64,000 nt of DNA, taken from the NCBI RefSeq assembly GCF_003602005.1, contig NZ_QZWD01000009.1, positions 62,001 through 126,000 on the forward strand, written 5' to 3'. This DNA comes from Salinisphaera sp. Q1T1-3. GTDB taxonomy: Bacteria; Pseudomonadota; Gammaproteobacteria; Nevskiales; Salinisphaeraceae. Under the pieces are notes generated by a model. It saw nothing but the letters and a program-made list of their open reading frames with translations, made no database searches and had not been told where the DNA came from. Below are positions 31,901-56,382 of this stretch, in pieces; the first letter of the stretch is position 1, and each line of letters opens with the position of its first letter. A program made the translations under genes and the position numbers.

Positions 31901-32896
31901 ATGTGGATCGGCGACTTCCAGTTGGCTGGCAATCTCGCGCTCGCGCCAATGGCGGGCGTGACCGATCGTGTCTTTCGCAGCCTGTGTCGCAGCCAGGGCG
32001 CGACGGTGACAACCGGCGAGATGGTGTCGGCGCGGGCCGAGCTGCGCACGACACGCAAATCGCGCCAACGTCTGGATTTCAGCGGCGAGCCGCGACCTCA
32101 TATCGTCCAGATCGCCGGCGGGGATGCCGCCGATCTTGCCGCGGCGGCACGCTGTAACGCCGAGGCCGGTGCCGACATCATCGATATCAACATGGGGTGT
32201 CCGGCCAAAAAGGTCTATCGCAAGGCGGCAGGTTCGGCGCTGATGGCCGATATCGATCAGGTGGAGCGCATTCTGGATGCCGTGGTCGCGGCCAGTCCGG
32301 TGCCGGTGACGCTCAAGATGCGGACCGGTGTCTCGGCCGATCGCATCAATGCGGTGGCGATCGCGCGTCTGGCCGAGGCCGCGGGCATCGCGGCCGTGGC
32401 CGTGCACGGCCGCACGCGCGACCAGCACTACAACGGAATCGCGGAGTACGCGACGATCGCTGCCGTCAAAGCGGCCGTCTCGATCCCGGTCTGGGCCAAT
32501 GGCGATGTCGACTCGACGGACAAGGCTGTCGAGGTGCTGGCGGCCACGGGTGCCGATGGTCTGATGATCGGGCGGGCGGCCTGTCGACGGCCGTGGTTGT
32601 TCGGCCTGATCGGGCAGCGTCTGGCCGGAGGCGCGACACCGATGGCGCCGAGTCTGGCCGACGAGCGGGAGCTGATGCTCGGGCTGATCGAGCAGATCCA
32701 CGATTTCTATGGCGAGGCTCAGGGCGTGCGTGTGGCACGCAAGCACATCGGCTGGCTGGCCGACCGCCACCCGCTGCATCCGACCTGGTATCTCGATCTG
32801 ATGCAGGCCGATAGTGGGCCACGTCAGTGTCATCGGCTGGCGCGTCTGTTCGATGCGCTCGGGAATGTCGTCGACAGACAGGCGGCCGATATTTGA
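31901..32896 (+). CDS. dusB: tRNA-dihydrouridine synthase B
   Basis: FMN enzyme (331 aa) reducing uridine in tRNA D-loops. Motifs: APMAGVTDRVFR near the N-terminus, catalytic Cys in DINMGCPAKKVYRKAAGSALM, ALKMRTG-like VTLKMRTG, HGRTRDQHY and the FMN-binding ANGDV/GADGLMIGRAACRRPWLF. In enterobacteria dusB is followed by fis; here no fis follows. The TGA stop lies inside an FNR box, so the operator of the next unit starts at the very end of dusB. Confidence 0.95.
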   Translation: MWIGDFQLAGNLALAPMAGVTDRVFRSLCRSQGATVTTGEMVSARAELRTTRKSRQRLDFSGEPRPHIVQIAGGDAADLAAAARCNAEAGADIIDINMGCPAKKVYRKAAGSALMADIDQVERILDAVVAASPVPVTLKMRTGVSADRINAVAIARLAEAAGIAAVAVHGRTRDQHYNGIAEYATIAAVKAAVSIPVWANGDVDSTDKAVEVLAATGADGLMIGRAACRRPWLFGLIGQRLAGGATPMAPSLADERELMLGLIEQIHDFYGEAQGVRVARKHIGWLADRHPLHPTWYLDLMQADSGPRQCHRLARLFDALGNVVDRQAADI

Positions 32897-32906
32897 TCTG
32901 GATCAT
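32893..32906 (+). promoter_or_regulatory. FNR/ANR box (TTGATCTGGATCAT)
   Basis: Matches TTGAT-N4-ATCAA with one mismatch at the last base. It overlaps the dusB stop codon. Its centre lies about 66 bp before the start of the small Cys-rich gene that follows. Confidence 0.75.
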
Positions 32907-32965
32907 CGAGCCGGGTCGTATTCCGGCCCAGGCTCGGGGCTTTGTCAGCAACGGCGGAGTCCGCG

Positions 32966-33244
32966 ATGTCTGTATCCACCCCCCGAATCAGCGTGGCGAT
33001 CGGCCATATCGGTCGTGACCGGATCATGCTCATGGCCCTGAGCGAGGCCGCAGCGCGCCACGGAGCGCGGCTGATCGGACGCTACGAGCCGGGGCGTCGC
33101 CACCAAGACGATGCACCGCCGGCCTGTTGTCGCGACTGCGATGTCGCGGCCGACTTCGCCCGGCGTCTGTTCGAAAACCTGTGTCGACGAGCGGGCCTGG
33201 CCAATTACGCCTGGCTCGACGGGCGACGTCTCTCATGTGGTTGA
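32966..33244 (+). CDS. Small Cys-rich protein under an FNR-type box, unknown
   Basis: 92 residues, family not recognised. The N-terminal half is hydrophobic-amphipathic (RISVAIGHIGRDRIMLMALSEAAARHGARLIG), the rest holds five cysteines (CCRDC, LC, SC at the end) and a HQDD segment. No signal peptide or TM helix. ATG 32966 has GGAG six to seven bp upstream. FNR-type boxes lie both before it and over its stop codon, so it is probably expressed under low oxygen. A metal-binding or redox role is inference. Confidence 0.6.
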   Translation: MSVSTPRISVAIGHIGRDRIMLMALSEAAARHGARLIGRYEPGRRHQDDAPPACCRDCDVAADFARRLFENLCRRAGLANYAWLDGRRLSCG

Positions 33245-33254
33245 TCTGGATCAA
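33241..33254 (+). promoter_or_regulatory. FNR/ANR box upstream of ompW
   Basis: Exact consensus TTGATCTGGATCAA. It overlaps the stop codon of the small gene (TGA at 33242-33244) and lies 90 bp before the ompW start. A transcription start 41.5 bp downstream of its centre (near 33289) would be the activator geometry, but no good -10 is visible there. Confidence 0.8.
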
Positions 33255-33343
33255 TAACCCAATGGCGTGATGGCGTCAGAGTGTCTTCCAGCGGCGTGCC
33301 GGAAAGACGCCGCGGCTCGATACACCGCAAGGGAGACAACGGC

Positions 33344-34030
33344 ATGAACATTCGACGAGCGGTCGCCGGCGTGATCGGTCTCGGCCTGTTATTCACCGGG
33401 GGCGCGGCCGCCGCGGCCGGCCCGTTGAGCGCAGGCCAGGTCATTCTGCGCGCCGGGGCGACCGGCGTGCTGCCGGACGAGGACACGCATCAGGTTGGCG
33501 GCGCGCTTGCGCCGGCGCTGGCCGGCACGCATGTCGCCGTCGATAACGACGTCAAGCCGGGCATCACGCTCGCCTACATGCTGACCGACCATATCGACGT
33601 CGAACTGCTCGGCGCCTGGCCGTTCAAGCACGAGGCCACACTACGCGGCGGGGCGCTGGCGGGGACGCGCCTGGGGTCGATCAAGCATCTGCCGCCGACG
33701 CTCAGCGTGGATTATCACTTCGATACCGGGACGCCGGTCACGCCTTATGTCGGCGTCGGCGTGAACTACACGATGTTCTTTGACGAGCAGGTCGACGATG
33801 CCGCGGCCGCCGCTGGCGTGACGGGTCTCGATCTGTCGAATTCGTTCGGGCCGGCGGCCCAGGTCGGTGTCGACTACATGCTGGGTGATCACTGGTTGGT
33901 CAATGCCAACGTGCGTTATCTGCAGATCGATACCAATGCGCGGGTCGCGACGGCCGGCGGCGGCCGTACCGATGTCGATCTGGACATCGACCCGTGGGTC
34001 TATACCGCCGCCATCGGCTATCGTTTCTGA
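33344..34030 (+). CDS. ompW: Outer-membrane protein OmpW
   Basis: 228 aa eight-stranded beta-barrel with signal peptide (VIGLGLLFTGGAAAAAG). Typical family segments: ILRAGATGVLPD, PGITLAYMLTDHIDVELLGAWPFKH, TPYVGVGVNYTMFF and the C-terminal AIGYRF with a terminal aromatic residue recognised by the BAM machine. GGGAG lies about 12 bp before the ATG. An FNR box precedes it; ompW is a known FNR-controlled gene in other proteobacteria. Confidence 0.93.
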   Translation: MNIRRAVAGVIGLGLLFTGGAAAAAGPLSAGQVILRAGATGVLPDEDTHQVGGALAPALAGTHVAVDNDVKPGITLAYMLTDHIDVELLGAWPFKHEATLRGGALAGTRLGSIKHLPPTLSVDYHFDTGTPVTPYVGVGVNYTMFFDEQVDDAAAAAGVTGLDLSNSFGPAAQVGVDYMLGDHWLVNANVRYLQIDTNARVATAGGGRTDVDLDIDPWVYTAAIGYRF

Positions 34031-34046
34031 TGCGGTGGTCGGCCGG

Positions 34047-34790
34047 TCACTGGTCCGCGGCCCAGGCACCGTGCCCGGCCCAGGTCTCGAGCGCGTCGAA
34101 ATCGCATATCGCGACTTCGGCGCGGGCGAGTGTGATGATGCCGTTGTGCTGCATGCGGCTGAGCACGCGGCTGACGGTCTCGATGCGCATGCCGAGGAAA
34201 TTGGCCAGCTCGGCGCGCTTCATGGACAGCCGGATCGGCGAGGCAGGGAGGCCGCGCTGCTGGCGCCGGCGCGACAGACAGAGCAGCAGGGTGGCGATAC
34301 GCCCTTCGCTGTTCTTGCGTCCCAGCGTCAGCAACAGCGATTCGTCGTCGGATAGTGCCTGGCCCATCAGACGCATCATCTGGCGTCGCAGGCTCGGTAT
34401 GTCGTCGATCAGATCGTCCAGACGCTCGAATTCGATTCGACAGATCCGACTGTCCTCAAGCGCAGTGGCAGTGCACTGATGCGTCTGGGCGCCGAAGCCG
34501 TCGAGGCCGAGCAGATCACCGGGATAATAGAAACCCATGATCTGTTCCAGCCCGTCGGCATCGAGCATGGCGGTTTTCAGGGCGCCGGCACTGACGGCAT
34601 AGATCGCGGCCAGCGGTTCGCCCTGCCGAAACAGTGTCTTGCCGCGCGGCAGCGGGACGGCCACTTCGACTTCCGTTTCCAGCTGGGCGACATCATCGGT
34701 ATCCAGGCCGTACGGCAGGCACAGATGGGCCAGCGAGCACTGACCGCAGGCCTGATTGACTTGTTCGAGACGACGAGACGTGGCGGGCAT
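34047..34790 (-). CDS. FNR/ANR oxygen-sensing transcription regulator
   Basis: 247-residue CRP-FNR protein. N-terminal cysteines C15, C18 and C24 (ACGQCSLAHLC) plus C106 are the four ligands of the oxygen-labile 4Fe-4S cluster. A cyclic-nucleotide-like sensor fold follows, and the DNA-recognition helix contains ETVSRVLSR, the E-xx-SR pattern that reads TTGAT half-sites. This explains the four TTGAT boxes around it. Convergent with ompW, divergent from cydDC with an FNR box between. ATG 34790 gives the normal family length. Confidence 0.95.
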   Translation of the reverse strand: MPATSRRLEQVNQACGQCSLAHLCLPYGLDTDDVAQLETEVEVAVPLPRGKTLFRQGEPLAAIYAVSAGALKTAMLDADGLEQIMGFYYPGDLLGLDGFGAQTHQCTATALEDSRICRIEFERLDDLIDDIPSLRRQMMRLMGQALSDDESLLLTLGRKNSEGRIATLLLCLSRRRQQRGLPASPIRLSMKRAELANFLGMRIETVSRVLSRMQHNGIITLARAEVAICDFDALETWAGHGAWAADQ

Positions 34791-34940
34791 GACACAGCGC
34801 TTATCGTTGAATCCGAGACATCGGCGACCGGTTCTTGTGCGTCCGGTCGAAAAATGACGGGTACACCGTAGCTTACGCTGGTTTGAAAATTCATGAGTCG
34901 GGCACGATGAAATCGCGCAACGCTTGCTTGTGGGCATGAT

Positions 34941-34954
34941 TTGATCTGGATCAA
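34941..34954. promoter_or_regulatory. FNR/ANR box between the regulator and cydD
   Basis: Exact TTGATCTGGATCAA. For cydD, a TAGGCT (TAnnnT) -10 at 34977-34982 fits a start near 34989, 41.5 bp from the box centre: class II activation geometry. For the regulator on the other strand the box is about 150 bp from its start and could support autoregulation. Confidence 0.82.
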
Positions 34955-35013
34955 GAAGTCCGCGCGTGCCTCGCACTAGGCTGACTGCACTGGTTTTCCG
35001 CGCACGCTCCCCC

Positions 35014-36768
35014 ATGAGTGCCACGACCGCGGCCGATGCCCCCGGCTGGCTCGCTTCACAAAAAAGCCGTGTGTCCGGGCCGGTGGCCACGACCATCGGT
35101 CTGGGGCTGGCCGGTGGTCTGCTGTTGATCGTCCAGGCCAGCCTGTTCGCGTTGCTGGCCAATGCCGTGATCTTCGACAACGCGGGTCTGGCGCGTATCG
35201 CGCCCTGGCTGATCGGTATCGCGGCCCTGGTGCTGGTCAGGGCGGGGCTGGTCTATGCCGCCCAGCAGAGCGCCTTCGTTGCCGGCCGTCGTATCAAGAC
35301 GGCGATCCGGGCTCGTCTGATCGCCCGCCTCGGCACGCTCGGCATCGTCTGGCAGCGGGCCACGCCGACCGGGGATGTGGTCAACACGCTGACCGATGGC
35401 GTCGAGGCATTGGAGGCCTATTACGCGCGCTATCTGCCACAGAGCGCGCTGGCGGCCCTGATCCCGTTGTCGATTCTGGTCGTGGTCGTGCCGATCGACT
35501 GGCTCTCCGCGCTCATTCTGGTGATCACCGCGCCGCTGATTCCGGTGTTCATGGTCTTCATCGGACGCGGCGCGGAAAAACTCAATCAGCGCCAGTGGCG
35601 TCGCATGGGACAGTTGTCGGGGCATTTCCTCGATGCGCTGTCCGGCCTGAGTACGCTGCGGATCTTCAATCTCGGCCGGCGCGAAGCGCGTCTGATCGCG
35701 CGCTTTTCCGAGGAATACCGGCTGGCTACGCTGCGCGTGCTGCGCCTGGCGTTCGTTTCGTCGTTGGTACTGGAGTTTCTGGCCACGGTGAGCATCGCGA
35801 TGGTCGCAGTGCTGATCGGGTTCCGACTGCTCTGGGGAGATCTCGGTTTCGCCGCCGGCTTCGTCGTGCTCCTGCTGGCACCGGAGTTCTATCTGCCGCT
35901 GCGCAACATGGGCAGCGTGTATCACGCCCGCATGGAGGCGATCGGCGCGGCCGAGGGCATCGTGGTCCTGCTCGACGAGGCCGAAAGCGGGCCGGCGACG
36001 GCGATGCCCGGCACAGAGCAGATCGGGCTCGCCGCCGGTCGTGCGCCTTATATCGAGCTGCGCGATGTCGGGCTGTGCTATCCGGACGGCACGCCAGCGC
36101 TGCGTGCGATCGATCTCGCGATCACGCCGGGCGAAACGGTGGCTATCGTGGGGGCCTCGGGGGCCGGCAAGAGCACGCTTGCCGGCGTGCTGCTCGGGCT
36201 GCTGGCGCCGAGTACCGGGCAGGTGTGGGTCGACGGGATCGATCGGTCGCAGCTGGATGCAGGATACTGGCACCGGTTTTGTGCCTGGGTGCCGCAGCAG
36301 CCGCGGCTGTTCCACGGCACGGTGCGCGACAATCTGGCGCTGGCCGATCCGGCCGCCGACGACGCGACACTCTGGCACGCACTCGAACGGGCCCAGGCGC
36401 GCGACTTCGTGGCCGCGCTTGCCGACGGTCTGGACACCGCGATCGGCGAACGCGGCCTGTCGTTGTCGGGCGGCGAGATCCAGCGCCTGGCGATAGCCCG
36501 GGCGCTCGTCTCGCAGGCGCCCTTCGTCGTCGTCGACGAAGCCAGCGCCCATCTCGATCGGCCGAACGAGGTGGCCCTGACCGCGGCCCTGGCCGAGCTC
36601 GGCGCGGGGCGCAGCCTCGTGGTCATCGCGCATCGCCTGGCCACGATCCGACGGGCCGACCGGATCGTGGTGCTCGATGCCGGACGCATCGTCGAGATCG
36701 GAACCCACAACCGCCTGCGCGCGGCCGGCGGGCCCTATGCCGCCATGCTCGGCGAGGCCCCCCGATGA
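35014..36768 (+). CDS. cydD: Thiol reductant ABC exporter subunit CydD
   Basis: 584-residue half of the CydDC transporter, exporting cysteine/glutathione to the periplasm for bd-oxidase assembly. Six N-terminal TM helices, then an ATPase with Walker A VGASGAGKSTLAG, signature LSLSGGEIQRLAIARAL and Walker B FVVVDEASAHLD. ATG 35014 is downstream of the FNR-dependent start; an in-frame GTG at 34966 would be upstream of it. The start of cydC overlaps its stop (ATGA). Confidence 0.95.
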   Translation: MSATTAADAPGWLASQKSRVSGPVATTIGLGLAGGLLLIVQASLFALLANAVIFDNAGLARIAPWLIGIAALVLVRAGLVYAAQQSAFVAGRRIKTAIRARLIARLGTLGIVWQRATPTGDVVNTLTDGVEALEAYYARYLPQSALAALIPLSILVVVVPIDWLSALILVITAPLIPVFMVFIGRGAEKLNQRQWRRMGQLSGHFLDALSGLSTLRIFNLGRREARLIARFSEEYRLATLRVLRLAFVSSLVLEFLATVSIAMVAVLIGFRLLWGDLGFAAGFVVLLLAPEFYLPLRNMGSVYHARMEAIGAAEGIVVLLDEAESGPATAMPGTEQIGLAAGRAPYIELRDVGLCYPDGTPALRAIDLAITPGETVAIVGASGAGKSTLAGVLLGLLAPSTGQVWVDGIDRSQLDAGYWHRFCAWVPQQPRLFHGTVRDNLALADPAADDATLWHALERAQARDFVAALADGLDTAIGERGLSLSGGEIQRLAIARALVSQAPFVVVDEASAHLDRPNEVALTAALAELGAGRSLVVIAHRLATIRRADRIVVLDAGRIVEIGTHNRLRAAGGPYAAMLGEAPR

Positions 36769-38543
36769 GCGATCTGCGCTGGTGGTGGCAGCGGGCGCGA
36801 CCGTATCGCGGCGCTTTCGCGCTGGGGCTTGTGCTGTCGATCGTGACGATGGCCTCGAATATGGCACTGCTGGCGGTGTCCGGCGGTTTCATCGCCGCAA
36901 TGGCGGCCGCCGGGCTGGCCGGCCTCGACATGAACTACTTCACGCCGGCAGCCGCCATCCGGGGCTTGGCGATTACGCGGACGGTCGGACGCTACTTCGA
37001 GCGGCTGGTCAATCACGATGCCACGCTGAAAGTGCTGACCGGCCTGCGTGTCTGGTTCTATAACCAGATCGAACCGCTGTCGGCGCATCAATGGTCACGT
37101 CTGCGCGGCGGTGATCTGCTGGCGCGGGTGCGCTCGGACATCGATACCCTGAGCGGCGTCTATCTACAGCTCGTGGTGCCGGCGATCGCCGGGGGGCTCT
37201 GTATTCTCGGCGCCACTGCGGTCTGGGCCTGCTACAGCGGCGCGGTCGCTGTCGTGAATCTGGCCTGCCTGGTGGTAGCCGGTGGCGTGCTGCCCTGGGC
37301 CGTGGCGCGCGCGGGCGAGGCGCCCGGACAGGCCGCGGTGGCCGTCGCGGCCCGCCTCAAGAGCGAAACCGTGGATCTGGTGGCCGGACTGGGCGAGCTG
37401 CAGATTTTCGGTGCCTTCGAGCGCCGGGCAGATGAAGTCGCGGCTCTGACCGAGGCCCATCTGGATCATCAGGCCCGCCTGTCGCGCCTGACCGGGCTCG
37501 GTCAGGCCGGCGTGCTGGTCGCGGTCAATGCCGCGCTCGTGGCTACGGTGCTACTGATCGTGCCGGTGATTCGTGCCGGTGCTATCGCGCCGGTGGACTT
37601 CGCCGTCGTCACGCTGCTGGTGCTGGCCAGCGCCGAGGCGGTGGCCCAGATGCCGACGGCATGGCAGGCGCTGGGCCAGTTTCGGGCAGCCACACGGCGG
37701 TTGCGGGCCTTCGAGGCATTGCGCCCGGCGATCATCGAGCCGGAGACGCCGCTGCCGGCGCCGCGTCGTCACACGCTGGTCTTCGATCGGGTATGCGCCC
37801 GGCATACGCCCGATGCGCCCTGGGCGCTGGCCGAGGCGACGTTCTCGATCGCGCCCGGTGAACACGTGGCGATCATCGGGGCCAGCGGCGCCGGCAAGAG
37901 CACGTTGGTGCATCTGCTGACGCGCATGACTCTGGCCGAACGCGGCATGGTGCGCTGGGGCGGGGCGCCGGTGGCGGCCTACGACAGCCACGATTTGCGC
38001 GCTGCCCTCGCCGTCGTGCCGCAACATATCCATCTGTTCCATGCCTCGGTCGCCGACAACATCGCAGTCGGCGACCCGGCGGCCGACGAGGGCGCACTCG
38101 TGGCAGCGGCCCGGGCGGCCGCCATCCACGACGACATCATGGCCTTGCCCGAGGGCTACGACACGCTGGTCGGCGAGCAGGGCATGCGGTTGTCCGGCGG
38201 CCAGATCCGGCGTATCGGCATTGCCCGTGCCCTGCTGCGCCGCGCCCCGATCGTCGTCATGGACGAGCCGGGCGAAGGGCTTGACCGGGCAACGGCCGAG
38301 CGCTTCTGGCAGGCGGCCGGCTCGTATCTGGCCGGCCGTACGTTGCTGGTCGTCTCGCATCAGCCGGAATGGGTAGCCCACTGCGAGCGCGTGATCGTGC
38401 TCGATCGCGGGCGCGTGGTCGGCGACGGCCCGCCGGAAACGCTGGCCGAGACCTGTGCTGAATATCGTCGTCTGACCCGGCCCGGCGGGCGACTTGATCC
38501 AGATCAAAAGCCCGCCCGGGCAGCCTGTCTAACCTTGTCCTGA
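36765..38543 (+). CDS. cydC: Thiol reductant ABC exporter subunit CydC
   Basis: 592 aa partner of CydD. TM part starts RWWWQRARPYRGAFALG; ATPase part has Walker A IGASGAGKSTLVHLL, Q-loop VPQHIHLFH, signature RLSGGQIRRIGIARAL and Walker B IVVMDEPGEGLD. Translationally coupled to cydD. Its last ~17 codons carry the FNR box that serves cydA, so this coding sequence doubles as a promoter. Confidence 0.95.
   Translation: MSDLRWWWQRARPYRGAFALGLVLSIVTMASNMALLAVSGGFIAAMAAAGLAGLDMNYFTPAAAIRGLAITRTVGRYFERLVNHDATLKVLTGLRVWFYNQIEPLSAHQWSRLRGGDLLARVRSDIDTLSGVYLQLVVPAIAGGLCILGATAVWACYSGAVAVVNLACLVVAGGVLPWAVARAGEAPGQAAVAVAARLKSETVDLVAGLGELQIFGAFERRADEVAALTEAHLDHQARLSRLTGLGQAGVLVAVNAALVATVLLIVPVIRAGAIAPVDFAVVTLLVLASAEAVAQMPTAWQALGQFRAATRRLRAFEALRPAIIEPETPLPAPRRHTLVFDRVCARHTPDAPWALAEATFSIAPGEHVAIIGASGAGKSTLVHLLTRMTLAERGMVRWGGAPVAAYDSHDLRAALAVVPQHIHLFHASVADNIAVGDPAADEGALVAAARAAAIHDDIMALPEGYDTLVGEQGMRLSGGQIRRIGIARALLRRAPIVVMDEPGEGLDRATAERFWQAAGSYLAGRTLLVVSHQPEWVAHCERVIVLDRGRVVGDGPPETLAETCAEYRRLTRPGGRLDPDQKPARAACLTLS
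38494..38507 (+). promoter_or_regulatory. FNR/ANR box of cydA inside cydC
   Basis: TTGATCCAGATCAA, the exact reverse complement of the box at 34941. The -10 TAACCT (38530-38535, TAnnnT) predicts a start near 38542, again 41.5 bp from the centre. Confidence 0.82.
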
Positions 38544-38589: not shown

Positions 38590-40179
38590 ATGCATGCCCT
38601 GGATACCGTCGTCGAGCTTTCGCGGGCGCAGTTCGCCGCGACCGCGCTCTACCATTTTCTGTTCGTGCCGCTCACGCTCGGGCTGACCATGCTGCTGGCG
38701 GCGATGGAAACCATCTACGTCATCACCGGCCGCGCGATCTACCGCCAGATGACCCAGTTCTGGGGCAAGCTGTTCGCGATCAACTTCGCGCTCGGCGTGG
38801 CCACCGGACTGACGATGGAGTTCGAGTTCGGCACCAACTGGTCGACCTACTCGCACTTCGTCGGGGATATCTTCGGCGCGCCCCTGGCCATCGAGGGCCT
38901 GATGGCCTTTTTCCTCGAATCGACCATGGTCGGGCTGATGCTGTTCGGCTGGGACAAGCTCTCGCGGGGCAAGCATCTGCTGGTGACCTACATGGTCGCG
39001 CTCGGCTCGAACCTGTCGGCGTTGTGGATTCTGATCGCCAACGGTTACATGCAGGCACCGGTGGGCTCGGTCTTCAATCCAGAGACGATGCGCGTCGAGC
39101 TGACCAGCTTCACGGATCTGATCTTCAACCCCGAAGCCCAGGCCAAGTTCGTGCATACCAGCATCGCGGGTTATCTGACGGCCGCGATGTTCGTGATCGG
39201 CATCAGTGCCTTCTACATGCTGCGCCAGCGCCACGTGGAGCTGGCCAAACGCTCGTTTCGCGTGGCCGCGCTGTTCGGCATCTTCGCGAGCATTGCGGTG
39301 ATCTGTCTCGGGGATGCGCTGGGTTTCATCAACGGCGAGGATCAGCCGACCAAACTGGCTGCGATGGAAGGGCTCTGGGAAACTGCCGAACCGCCGGCCG
39401 GCTTCAACGTCATCGCCTGGCCGAACCAGGACGAGCAGAAAAACGACTTCGAGCTGCAGATTCCCTATCTGCTCACACCGCTGGTCACCCATAGCTTCGA
39501 CACGCCGATCCCGGGCGTCGACGATCTGGAAAAGACGGCGGCACAACGCATCCGCAGCGGTATTCCCGGTCTGGCCGCCCTGCAGCACCTGCGCGAGCAT
39601 CCGAACGATGCCGCCGCCCGGGCGCAATATGAAGCGCACAAGGCCGATATCGGCTATGCGCGGCTGGTTCAGCGCTATGCGCCGGACGTCACGCAGGCCA
39701 CCGATGCGCAGATCGCCAAGGCAGCGGCCGATACGATTCCGCCGGTCTTCCCCGTGTTCTGGAGCTTCCGGGTCATGGTCGGGGCGGCCTTCGTGATGCT
39801 GGCCTTTTTGATCCTGGCGGTCACCTATTCGCTACGCGGCACGATCACCGACAAGCGCTGGTTCTTGAAAGTGGCGCCCTGGATGATCCCGGTACCGTTC
39901 ATCGCCAACGAGGCCGGCTGGGTGGTGGCTGAACTGGGCCGCCAGCCCTGGACGGTCTACGACCAGCTGCCGACCTGGGTCTCGGCCTCGACCCATTCAG
40001 TGGGCTACATGATCTTTTCGCTGACCGGCTTCGTGCTGCTCTACACGATCTTCATCGTGATCGAGATGTTCTTGATGGTGAAGTACATCCGGCTGGGTCC
40101 GGATGACCCGCACCCGGGCCATGGACAGGGCACACCGGCAGGCCAGGGCAATCGCGTATCGCAGTGGAGCGAGGCATAA
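38590..40179 (+). CDS. cydA: Cytochrome bd ubiquinol oxidase subunit I
   Basis: 529 aa high-affinity quinol oxidase subunit carrying haems b558, b595 and d. Opens with ELSRAQFAATALYHFLFVPLTLGL (conserved His ligand), then FEFGTNWSTYSHFVGDIFG and the conserved Q-loop start GEDQP. The Q-loop is long, as in E. coli CydA, rather than the short CIO type. C-terminal GWVVAELGRQPWTVYDQLPT is diagnostic. Preceded by an FNR box and cydDC. Confidence 0.97.
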   Translation: MHALDTVVELSRAQFAATALYHFLFVPLTLGLTMLLAAMETIYVITGRAIYRQMTQFWGKLFAINFALGVATGLTMEFEFGTNWSTYSHFVGDIFGAPLAIEGLMAFFLESTMVGLMLFGWDKLSRGKHLLVTYMVALGSNLSALWILIANGYMQAPVGSVFNPETMRVELTSFTDLIFNPEAQAKFVHTSIAGYLTAAMFVIGISAFYMLRQRHVELAKRSFRVAALFGIFASIAVICLGDALGFINGEDQPTKLAAMEGLWETAEPPAGFNVIAWPNQDEQKNDFELQIPYLLTPLVTHSFDTPIPGVDDLEKTAAQRIRSGIPGLAALQHLREHPNDAAARAQYEAHKADIGYARLVQRYAPDVTQATDAQIAKAAADTIPPVFPVFWSFRVMVGAAFVMLAFLILAVTYSLRGTITDKRWFLKVAPWMIPVPFIANEAGWVVAELGRQPWTVYDQLPTWVSASTHSVGYMIFSLTGFVLLYTIFIVIEMFLMVKYIRLGPDDPHPGHGQGTPAGQGNRVSQWSEA

Positions 40180-40180
40180 G

Positions 40181-41314
40181 ATGGAACTCTACGTTGGACT
40201 CAAACTGATCTGGTGGGCCCTGCTCGGGGTGCTGCTGATCGGCCTGGCCGTGATGGTGGGCATGGACATGGGCGTCGGTGCCGCACTGCGCTATCTTGGA
40301 CGCAACGATGGCGAGCGACGCGCCGCGATCAACATGATCGCGCCGCACTGGGACGGCAACCAGGTCTGGTTCATTCTCGGGGGCGGGGCGATCTTCGCGG
40401 CCTGGCCCACGATCTATGCCACGGCGTTTTCCGGGCTGTACGTGGTGATGCTGTTGCTGCTCTGGGCCATGATCGTGCGCCCGCTCGGTTTCGAGTATCG
40501 CAGCAAGATGCCGGGTACGTTCTGGCGTAATGCCTGGGACTGGATGCTGTTCGTCTCCGGGGCGGTCCCGATGATCGTGTTCGGTGCGGCCATGGGCAAC
40601 ATGCTCGAAGGCGTGCCGTTCCATTACTCGTGGGACATGGTCTCGTACTACACGGGCAGCTTCATCACACTGTTCAATCCGTTTGCCGTGCTCTGCGGCC
40701 TGATGTCGCTGGCGCTCGCGCTGTATCAGGGCGCCACGATGATCATGGGCCGCGGCACCGGGGTGATCCGGGCGCGCGCCATACGTCTGGCCACGGTCAG
40801 CGGGGCAGCGGCCCTGGTGCTGTTCTCGATCGGCGGAATCTGGGTGAGTCAGATGCACGGCTATGTCGTGACCGGCGGGCTCGATCCGGCCGGGCCGGCG
40901 TTGCCGCTGAACAAGACTGTGGTCCGCGAAGGTGGTGCATGGCTGGCCAATTATCGCGCCGTGCCGTGGCTGTGGGCGATACCGGCGATGGTCTATCTGA
41001 CGTTGATCGGCGGCGTGCTCGTCGCGCGTCGCGGAATGGGCATCGTGGCCTGGTGGGCGGGAGCGCTCGCCTGGGCGGCGACCATCGGCACGGTCGGAGC
41101 GGCGATGTTCCCGTTCCTCATGCCCTCGTCGAGCGCGCCGAGCCAGAGCCTGACGGTCTGGGATGCCTCGTCCAGTGCCGGCACACTCGGCTGGATGCTG
41201 GTCTTTGCCGTGATCTTCGTGCCGATCATCCTGATCTACACGAGTTGGGCCTTCCATGTGATGCGCGGCAAGGTCACGCCGGAATCGATCGCCAACGACG
41301 ATCACGCCTACTAG
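40181..41314 (+). CDS. cydB: Cytochrome bd ubiquinol oxidase subunit II
   Basis: 377-residue membrane subunit, eight hydrophobic helices. Starts right after the cydA stop (TAAG-ATG) with GGAGCGAGG upstream inside cydA. Typical GMDMGVGAALRYLGRNDGERRA and APHWDGNQVWFILGGGAIFAAWP. Forms the heterodimer with CydA. Confidence 0.97.
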   Translation: MELYVGLKLIWWALLGVLLIGLAVMVGMDMGVGAALRYLGRNDGERRAAINMIAPHWDGNQVWFILGGGAIFAAWPTIYATAFSGLYVVMLLLLWAMIVRPLGFEYRSKMPGTFWRNAWDWMLFVSGAVPMIVFGAAMGNMLEGVPFHYSWDMVSYYTGSFITLFNPFAVLCGLMSLALALYQGATMIMGRGTGVIRARAIRLATVSGAAALVLFSIGGIWVSQMHGYVVTGGLDPAGPALPLNKTVVREGGAWLANYRAVPWLWAIPAMVYLTLIGGVLVARRGMGIVAWWAGALAWAATIGTVGAAMFPFLMPSSSAPSQSLTVWDASSSAGTLGWMLVFAVIFVPIILIYTSWAFHVMRGKVTPESIANDDHAY

Positions 41315-55948: not shown

Positions 55949-56113
55949 GTGTGTCCCGACTCGGATGTATGGTTTGCCCGCTTCGTGCGCATCGCCGATG
56001 CATATCCCGGTAGAAGGCCTTGATCGCGGTTTTCCAGGCGTCTTATCGGACGCAATGTGCGGTTGCGCCTGTCATGAGTGAAATCGCTGATGAAAGAAAC
56101 ATGAATTATTCTA

Positions 56114-56382
56114 GGGCCTGTTGATGTTTCGTGCGAGTCCGCGCCAAGTGCTGTTTTGCGGCAAGACGAGGCGTAGTGCGCGCCGTGCTGTCATTCTGCA
56201 CTAGCGGGCTACAACGCTGGATTGCCGCAAAAAAGCGTTTGTCCCTAAGGGTTGGGCCACAAATCCCGCCCTGCGGCGTTGCGAGTCTGGATCGTGGCAC
56301 GCCACGATCGGCGACTCGCGCCTTGCCGGACACACGGCGGTCTCTCGACGAAAAGGCGCTCGAACGAAACATCAACAGACCC
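56114..56382. repeat. MITE-like inverted-repeat element, family C (complete)
   Basis: 269 bp, ends GGGCCTGTTGATGTTTCGTGCGAG and CTCGAACGAAACATCAACAGACCC, an inverted pair of about 24 bp with few mismatches. Left flank TA, right flank TG. Shares an inner ~140-bp block with the truncated copy at 18758-18945, in inverse orientation. No ORF of note. Confidence 0.85.

Follow-up and report, generated by a model that had tools for sequence, protein, structure and literature searches.

An FNR/ANR class II regulon is well supported by the sequence of the cyd–ompW locus of Salinisphaera sp. Q1T1-3, in the 64,000-nucleotide stretch analysed here (the window). The regulator encoded at the locus very probably activates cydDC, cydAB, ompW, and a truncated usp gene, and the spacer shared by its four boxes would then reflect a binding preference of the regulator together with selection. 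Matches to Pfam and NCBIfam models gave the identities of dusB, ompW, the regulator gene, cydD, cydC, cydA, and cydB, and the features of the locus are summarized in Table 1.

Table 1. Boxes and genes of the locus (window positions).
Feature	Positions	Strand	Remarks
FNR/ANR box 1, TTGATCTGGATCAT	32893..32906	+	overlaps the TGA stop of dusB; nAnnnT = CAGGCT at 32929-32934
orf92, N-terminal Usp-like fragment, 92 aa	32966..33241	+	stop codon 33242-33244 within box 2
FNR/ANR box 2, TTGATCTGGATCAA	33241..33254	+	CAGAGT at 33277-33282
ompW	33344..34027	+	Pfam PF03922, 2.1e-61
FNR/ANR-type regulator	34050..34790	-	Cys15-Cys18-Cys24 and Cys117; recognition helix ETVSR
FNR/ANR box 3, TTGATCTGGATCAA	34941..34954	+	in the interval from the regulator gene to cydD; TAGGCT at 34977-34982 towards cydD
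cydD	35014..36765	+	NCBIfam TIGR02857, 584.8 bits (cut-off 435)
cydC	36765..38540	+	NCBIfam TIGR02868, 393.4 bits (cut-off 329); box 4 in last codons
FNR/ANR box 4, TTGATCCAGATCAA on the plus strand	38494..38507	-	TAACCT at 38530-38535 towards cydA
cydA	38590..40176	+	Pfam PF01654, 1e-171
cydB	40181..41311	+	Pfam PF02322, 1.9e-89; TIGR00203, 395.9 bits

The original prediction described four FNR-type boxes that are one 14-mer, its reverse complement, or a one-base variant, and all four were found where it had placed them. The boxes at 33241 and 34941 are exact copies of TTGATCTGGATCAA, the box at 38494 is an exact copy on the minus strand, and the box at 32893 has one mismatch to TTGATCTGGATCAA, at position 14. 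With ≤2 mismatches to TTGATCTGGATCAA allowed, the window gave seven strand matches, every one at the four boxes, and 100 shuffled windows gave a mean of 0.22 matches and a maximum of 2. In the whole genome (3,871,222 bases, 59 contigs), TTGATCTGGATCAA occurs exactly three times, always within this locus, and the two places with one mismatch are the box at 32893 and TTGATCTGGGTCAA at C10:24380. The free-spacer pattern TTGATNNNNATCAA has eight places, three in this locus and five outside; the latter carry five distinct spacers (GAGC, CGAC, ATCC, GATA, and GTCC), and three of them lie within predicted genes (one prediction weak) and two are intergenic. Because the exact 14-mer is confined to the locus and the outside TTGATNNNNATCAA places have other spacers, the random genome-wide scatter that had been named as evidence against the prediction was not seen. 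By a simple codon model, 50 of the 65 candidate sites fell inside predicted genes; one of the 50 is the cydA box, which shares its sequence with the 3' end of cydC. The half-site TTGAT includes TGA, and boxes 1 and 2 consequently hold stop codons, those of dusB (32894–32896) and orf92 (33242–33244), respectively.

We examined the distance between box and promoter in 32 hand-picked box–promoter pairs (7 own and 25 from relatives) by seeking TAnnnT at every offset; the targets in these pairs are cyd genes, ompW, usp genes, orf92, and one chemotaxis-like gene. In 16 of the 32 pairs, the first base of TAnnnT was exactly 29.5 bp away from the centre of the box, the next commonest offsets being 28.5 and 52.5 bp (2/32 each), and nAnnnT was present at 29.5 bp in 26 pairs and in ≤4 at any other offset; these counts are descriptive, because the pairs are related and were picked by hand. 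The relatives alone gave 14/25 (TAnnnT) and 21/25 (nAnnnT) at 29.5 bp, and the four boxes of the locus gave 2/4 and 4/4, respectively; at the base frequencies of the window, nAnnnT would stand at a given offset in all four with a probability of ~9e-7. As a -10 hexamer occupies -12 to -7, the box centre falls at -41.5. The class II spacing proposed for cydD and cydA was therefore borne out, TAGGCT and TAACCT lying exactly 29.5 bp from their box centres. The hexamers of ompW and orf92 are only CAnnnT, a poor -10. Six of the 32 pairs lacked even nAnnnT at 29.5 bp, namely uspA of G005 (TAnnnT at 28.5 bp), the upstream boxes of ompW in G005 and G007, uspB of G005, and two weak own sites. In G008, read after the count, the usp side of the box carries GAAACT at 29.5 bp. 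These distances indicate that the predicted promoter geometry at the locus is that of class II, centred at -41.5, and that it is conserved in the genus.

The cydA box and its -10 (38494–38543) sit within the last codons of cydC, and the cydA start deduced from the -10 position coincides with the cydC stop codon. Counted as the first base of the hexamer plus 12, the predicted starts are at ~34989 (cydD), ~38542 (cydA), ~33289 (ompW), and ~32941 (orf92).

The geometry and spacer counts exclude boxes with an unassigned downstream gene, namely L045 5297 and 7410, L046 10357, L047 13034 and 14901, L048 13308 (inside cydA), L050 10629, 12441, 13499, and 14095, L051 7877 and 10539, L052 9018, L055 7710, all L060 boxes, L062 9976, and L064 10128. 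L053, L056–L059, L061, and L063 had no boxes listed because no query gene matched there, and G016, a relative from another genus, is in neither count.

FNR-like proteins can also repress, as does CydR of Azotobacter. Repression of cydAB and cydDC in place of activation would have precedents in Anr, which represses cioA in Pseudomonas according to the regulon described in PMC6588701, and in FnrL of R. sphaeroides, whose coxI entry is marked repressed at a ChIP site with the identical 14-mer (PMC2908626). Against repression, activating sites usually lie at -41.5: among the 23 E. coli FNR-activated promoters with known start given in PMC3688515, 19 have the site there within 4 bases, and Fnr3 is described as activating cydAB in Herbaspirillum (PMC5934665). 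We thus consider repression unlikely at this locus and retain activation from class II promoters.

In regards to the regulator itself, PF00027, PF13545, and PF00325 matched above cut-off (cNMP-binding domain and Crp-type HTH). The protein has an N-terminal C-x2-C-x5-C (Cys15, 18, and 24) and a fourth cysteine, Cys117, which together form the [4Fe-4S] ligand motif known from E. coli FNR, and the helix ETVSR at 204 has the ExxSR form that reads TTGAT half-sites. The cysteine motif and the ETxSR helix were kept in all 11 aligned regulators (the own protein and 10 from relatives). The best of the 10 matched NCBIfam models was the Fnr model NF008365, with 219.3 bits and a cut-off of 228, which the protein did not reach and which we treated as a naming threshold, not as defining FNR membership.

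A second CRP/FNR protein is encoded at C54:15378–16046; it is 34% identical to the regulator, keeps ETxSR, and is devoid of the CxxC cysteines. Its gene follows a usp gene (Pfam Usp) on C54 (L069 3361–4989) with a TTGAGATGGATCAA site upstream, and the pair may form a second layer beneath the main regulator. Its recognition helix would suit the four boxes; its gene is nevertheless on another contig, beside the usp gene, and a box adjoins the local regulator gene in 10/10 genus loci, so that use of the boxes by this second protein appears very improbable.

Of the 13 genus relatives, nine have an ortholog of the local regulator (54–73% identity), and G016 has two copies (57 and 58% identity). ompW lies beside the regulator gene in eight of the nine ortholog-bearing relatives, and the cyd genes are also beside it in five (G003, G005, G007, G011, and G012); in G008, the divergent neighbour resembles a usp gene by eye. 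No box with ≤1 half-site mismatch was found before cydD in G012. At the corresponding locus, G003 has four exact copies of the 14-mer in a stretch of 8.8 kb, and its genome has six TTGATNNNNATCAA places in total. A comparable locus is carried by S. hydrothermalis. The free-spacer TTGATNNNNATCAA counts of the 13 genus relatives ranged from 1 to 25 (G005, 23; G007, 25), the own genome having 8, so that the regulon may have shrunk here or may have grown in G005 and G007; the pattern listing over 41 genomes was used for counts only.

The bd oxidase genes cydAB, the transporter genes cydDC, ompW, and the regulator gene had all been put forward as targets. The first three are upheld by their boxes and class II hexamers, and the regulator gene is not. 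cydD and the regulator gene both have the box at 34941 in front of them, but only in the direction of cydD does a -10-like hexamer follow at class II distance. In all 10 genus loci, the own locus included, the interval that separates the regulator gene from the gene diverging from it contains a box, at 115–174 bp from the regulator start, and a -10-like hexamer at class II distance was found on the regulator side in none of the 10 (TAnnnT and nAnnnT alike). The two copies in G016, a genome of the same family but another genus, have no box just upstream at ≤1 half-site mismatch; the nearest upstream box is 862 bp off for one copy, and the 5.5 kb contig of the other has none. Autoregulation is not supported by the geometry, because of the 0/10 count, and control by the regulator of its own gene would be the weakest of the claimed targets.

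The shared CTGG spacer had been regarded as surprising, on the premise that FNR sites tolerate any N4. We compared it with 24 boxes from relatives, collected with ≤1 half-site mismatch and a free spacer at loci that were first reached via a CTGG-like search. The set covers all nine genus relatives with a regulator ortholog, two of its boxes (G001 usp) came solely from the CTGG-led search, and it omits two uspB pairs and, except in G008, the regulator-side pairs, which reuse counted boxes; the independent number is below 24, because G005/G007 and G002/G006 are close pairs. After strand collapsing, the spacer was CTGG/CCAG in 13 of the 24 boxes. The centre was pyrimidine–purine in 24/24, position 7 always being a pyrimidine, and position 6 was C in 77% (both strands pooled, n = 24). 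The spacer information amounted to ~0.9–1.0 bit per position without small-sample correction. At the frequency in relatives, three additional boxes would all carry CTGG/CCAG with a probability of ~0.16, versus ~2e-6 for a neutral spacer. Published sites lean the same way: C6 or G9 occurs in 23/28 FnrL ChIP sites versus ~54% expected at 65% G+C (the window composition), with a weaker lean (0.25 bit for position 6 and 0.38 bit for position 7), and Herbaspirillum Fnr3 is reported to prefer C/G at position 6 and C/T at position 7 (PMC5934665). Because the boxes of relatives and the published FNR-family sites favour the same spacer letters, the neutral-spacer premise fails and the surprise is unjustified. 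The shared CTGG spacer is probably a binding preference of the regulator, seen across the genus, and a preference of this kind is already in print for Fnr3. Local duplication of one ancestral box, with spacers identical by descent, would fit four boxes within 5.6 kb of which three are identical, but we rejected such copying as the least probable explanation, since the ungapped flanks of the own boxes match poorly (6–12 of 40 bases upstream and 9–19 of 40 downstream) and same-gene promoters in relatives mostly retain the box while their spacers vary (CTGG, CCAG, TCAG, GCAG, and CCAA).

The gene behind box 1, orf92, had been listed as an unknown target. Its box with a class II nAnnnT stands, and the gene itself is most likely a truncated relative of uspA. 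It has no Pfam or NCBIfam family and no Pfam match even at E 10; it had no match in PLSDB plasmids (tblastn) and none at E 0.001 in 16 relatives. The latter blank proves nothing on its own, and the search in the relatives likewise failed to pick up uspA of G005 and of G007. With no family and no match in the 16 relatives or the PLSDB plasmids, we rejected orf92 as a conserved new gene. Aligned with UspA N-termini, orf92 scored 68 for G005 (best of 2000 shuffles, 53) and 72 for G007 (52), and it scored 51 for the Usp N-terminus of L054a (50). Among 10 Usp N-termini, three scored above all 2000 shuffles each; of the other seven, two were reached by 1–2 of the 2000 shuffles and three by 14–52, and two showed no similarity (331 and 822 shuffles). 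The summed Usp score of 451 was reached by 0/500 shuffles and 0/647 decoys (best decoy, 366). With an HMM of nine Usp sequences, orf92 gave 3.3 bits and ranked 5 of 2420, which did not separate it from shuffles. A BLASTP E value of 2e-6, from a comparison with one sequence and no composition correction, was not counted as evidence. These scores suggest that orf92 is related to UspA and is not a full Usp member.

G005 and G007 carry uspA, cbpM, cbpA, and a second usp between dusB and ompW (L048 4531–7668 and L049 10526–13628; family assignments from the proteins of G005), and the box behind dusB faces uspA in both. The same gap in the window holds only the uspA-like fragment, of 92 aa versus 270 aa for the G005 UspA protein, without the full uspA-cbpM-cbpA-usp block; a cbpA homolog (61%) is elsewhere in the genome, at C54:67186. 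The most likely reading of this arrangement is that orf92 is the N-terminal piece of a truncated uspA that kept its own box and -10 position, the rest of uspA presumably having been lost from the window locus.

Several known systems resemble the locus, and among their targets oprG of Pseudomonas is an OmpW homolog. FnrL of R. sphaeroides shares, besides the 14-mer at coxI and the lean towards C6/G9, ompW, uspA, and fnrL itself as ChIP targets (PMC2908626). Unlike the sites here, the 27 ChIP sites of FnrL are spread over the genome, fnrL is marked repressed as is coxI, and in the FnrL table hemZ is listed next to fnrL and cyd genes are absent (PMC2908626). In the account of Herbaspirillum seropedicae Fnr1 and Fnr3, ompW1 is near fnr1 and is a direct Fnr1 target, uspA is activated along with cydAB, and the fnr1 promoter has a box centred at -42; in contrast to the present locus, that organism has three Fnr proteins, heterodimers, and fixNOP near fnr1, with 57 and 41 bound promoters (PMC5934665). 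At E. coli ompW, the validated activating FNR site TTAATCCAGATCAA has a CCAG spacer, but the sites described there are at -81.5 and -126.5, not at -41.5 (PMC4886647). Pseudomonas Anr, an Fe-S FNR homolog, has oprG in its core regulon; it differs in the 92–136 boxes predicted per genome in five species, in its repression of cioA, and in the setting of anr, which adjoins apt and has hemN downstream or nearby (PMC6588701).

Outside the locus, the usp gene adjoining the second CRP/FNR gene is preceded by TTGAGATGGATCAA at 86.5 bp, a single-domain usp gene by TTGCGCTGGATCAA at 102.5 bp, and a chemotaxis-like gene by TTGATCTGGGTCAA at 250.5 bp (the last two genes named by eye). These candidate targets are weak and are mainly at usp genes. 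An FNR/ANR regulon that hardly extends beyond the 5.6 kb surrounding the regulator gene is conceivable, and the restriction of the three exact boxes to the locus and the similar appearance of G003 speak for it, although we hold this view only tentatively and lean against it. If it is true, an otherwise global regulator would be a local switch for the bd oxidase, OmpW, and stress proteins.

At ~56110–56382 of the window, imperfect inverted ends gggcctgttgatgtttcg ... cgaaacatcaacagaccc stand ~270 bases apart and perhaps delimit a small mobile element; letters resembling these ends were also seen by eye near the C10 site.

From the boxes, the homologies, their conservation, and the -10 distance, we infer the following mechanism. 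At low oxygen, the regulator (34050–34790) would keep a [4Fe-4S] cluster on Cys15, Cys18, Cys24, and Cys117, dimerise, and bind boxes of the form TTGAT-C-YR-G-ATCAA whose centres are at -41.5 in four promoters. The bound regulator would touch RNA polymerase in the class II manner and turn on cydDC, cydAB, ompW, and the truncated usp frame. The CTGG spacer would arise from the binding preference of the regulator and selection for strong sites, with no separate code and no recent box copying.

The N4 shorthand for FNR boxes is hereby corrected, as the spacer is not neutral, and giving weight to the spacer in scans (C6, pyrimidine 7, purine 8, and G9) may part real from chance sites better than TTGATNNNNATCAA does. 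Salinisphaera thereby gains a testable low-oxygen regulon with a precisely predicted promoter geometry.
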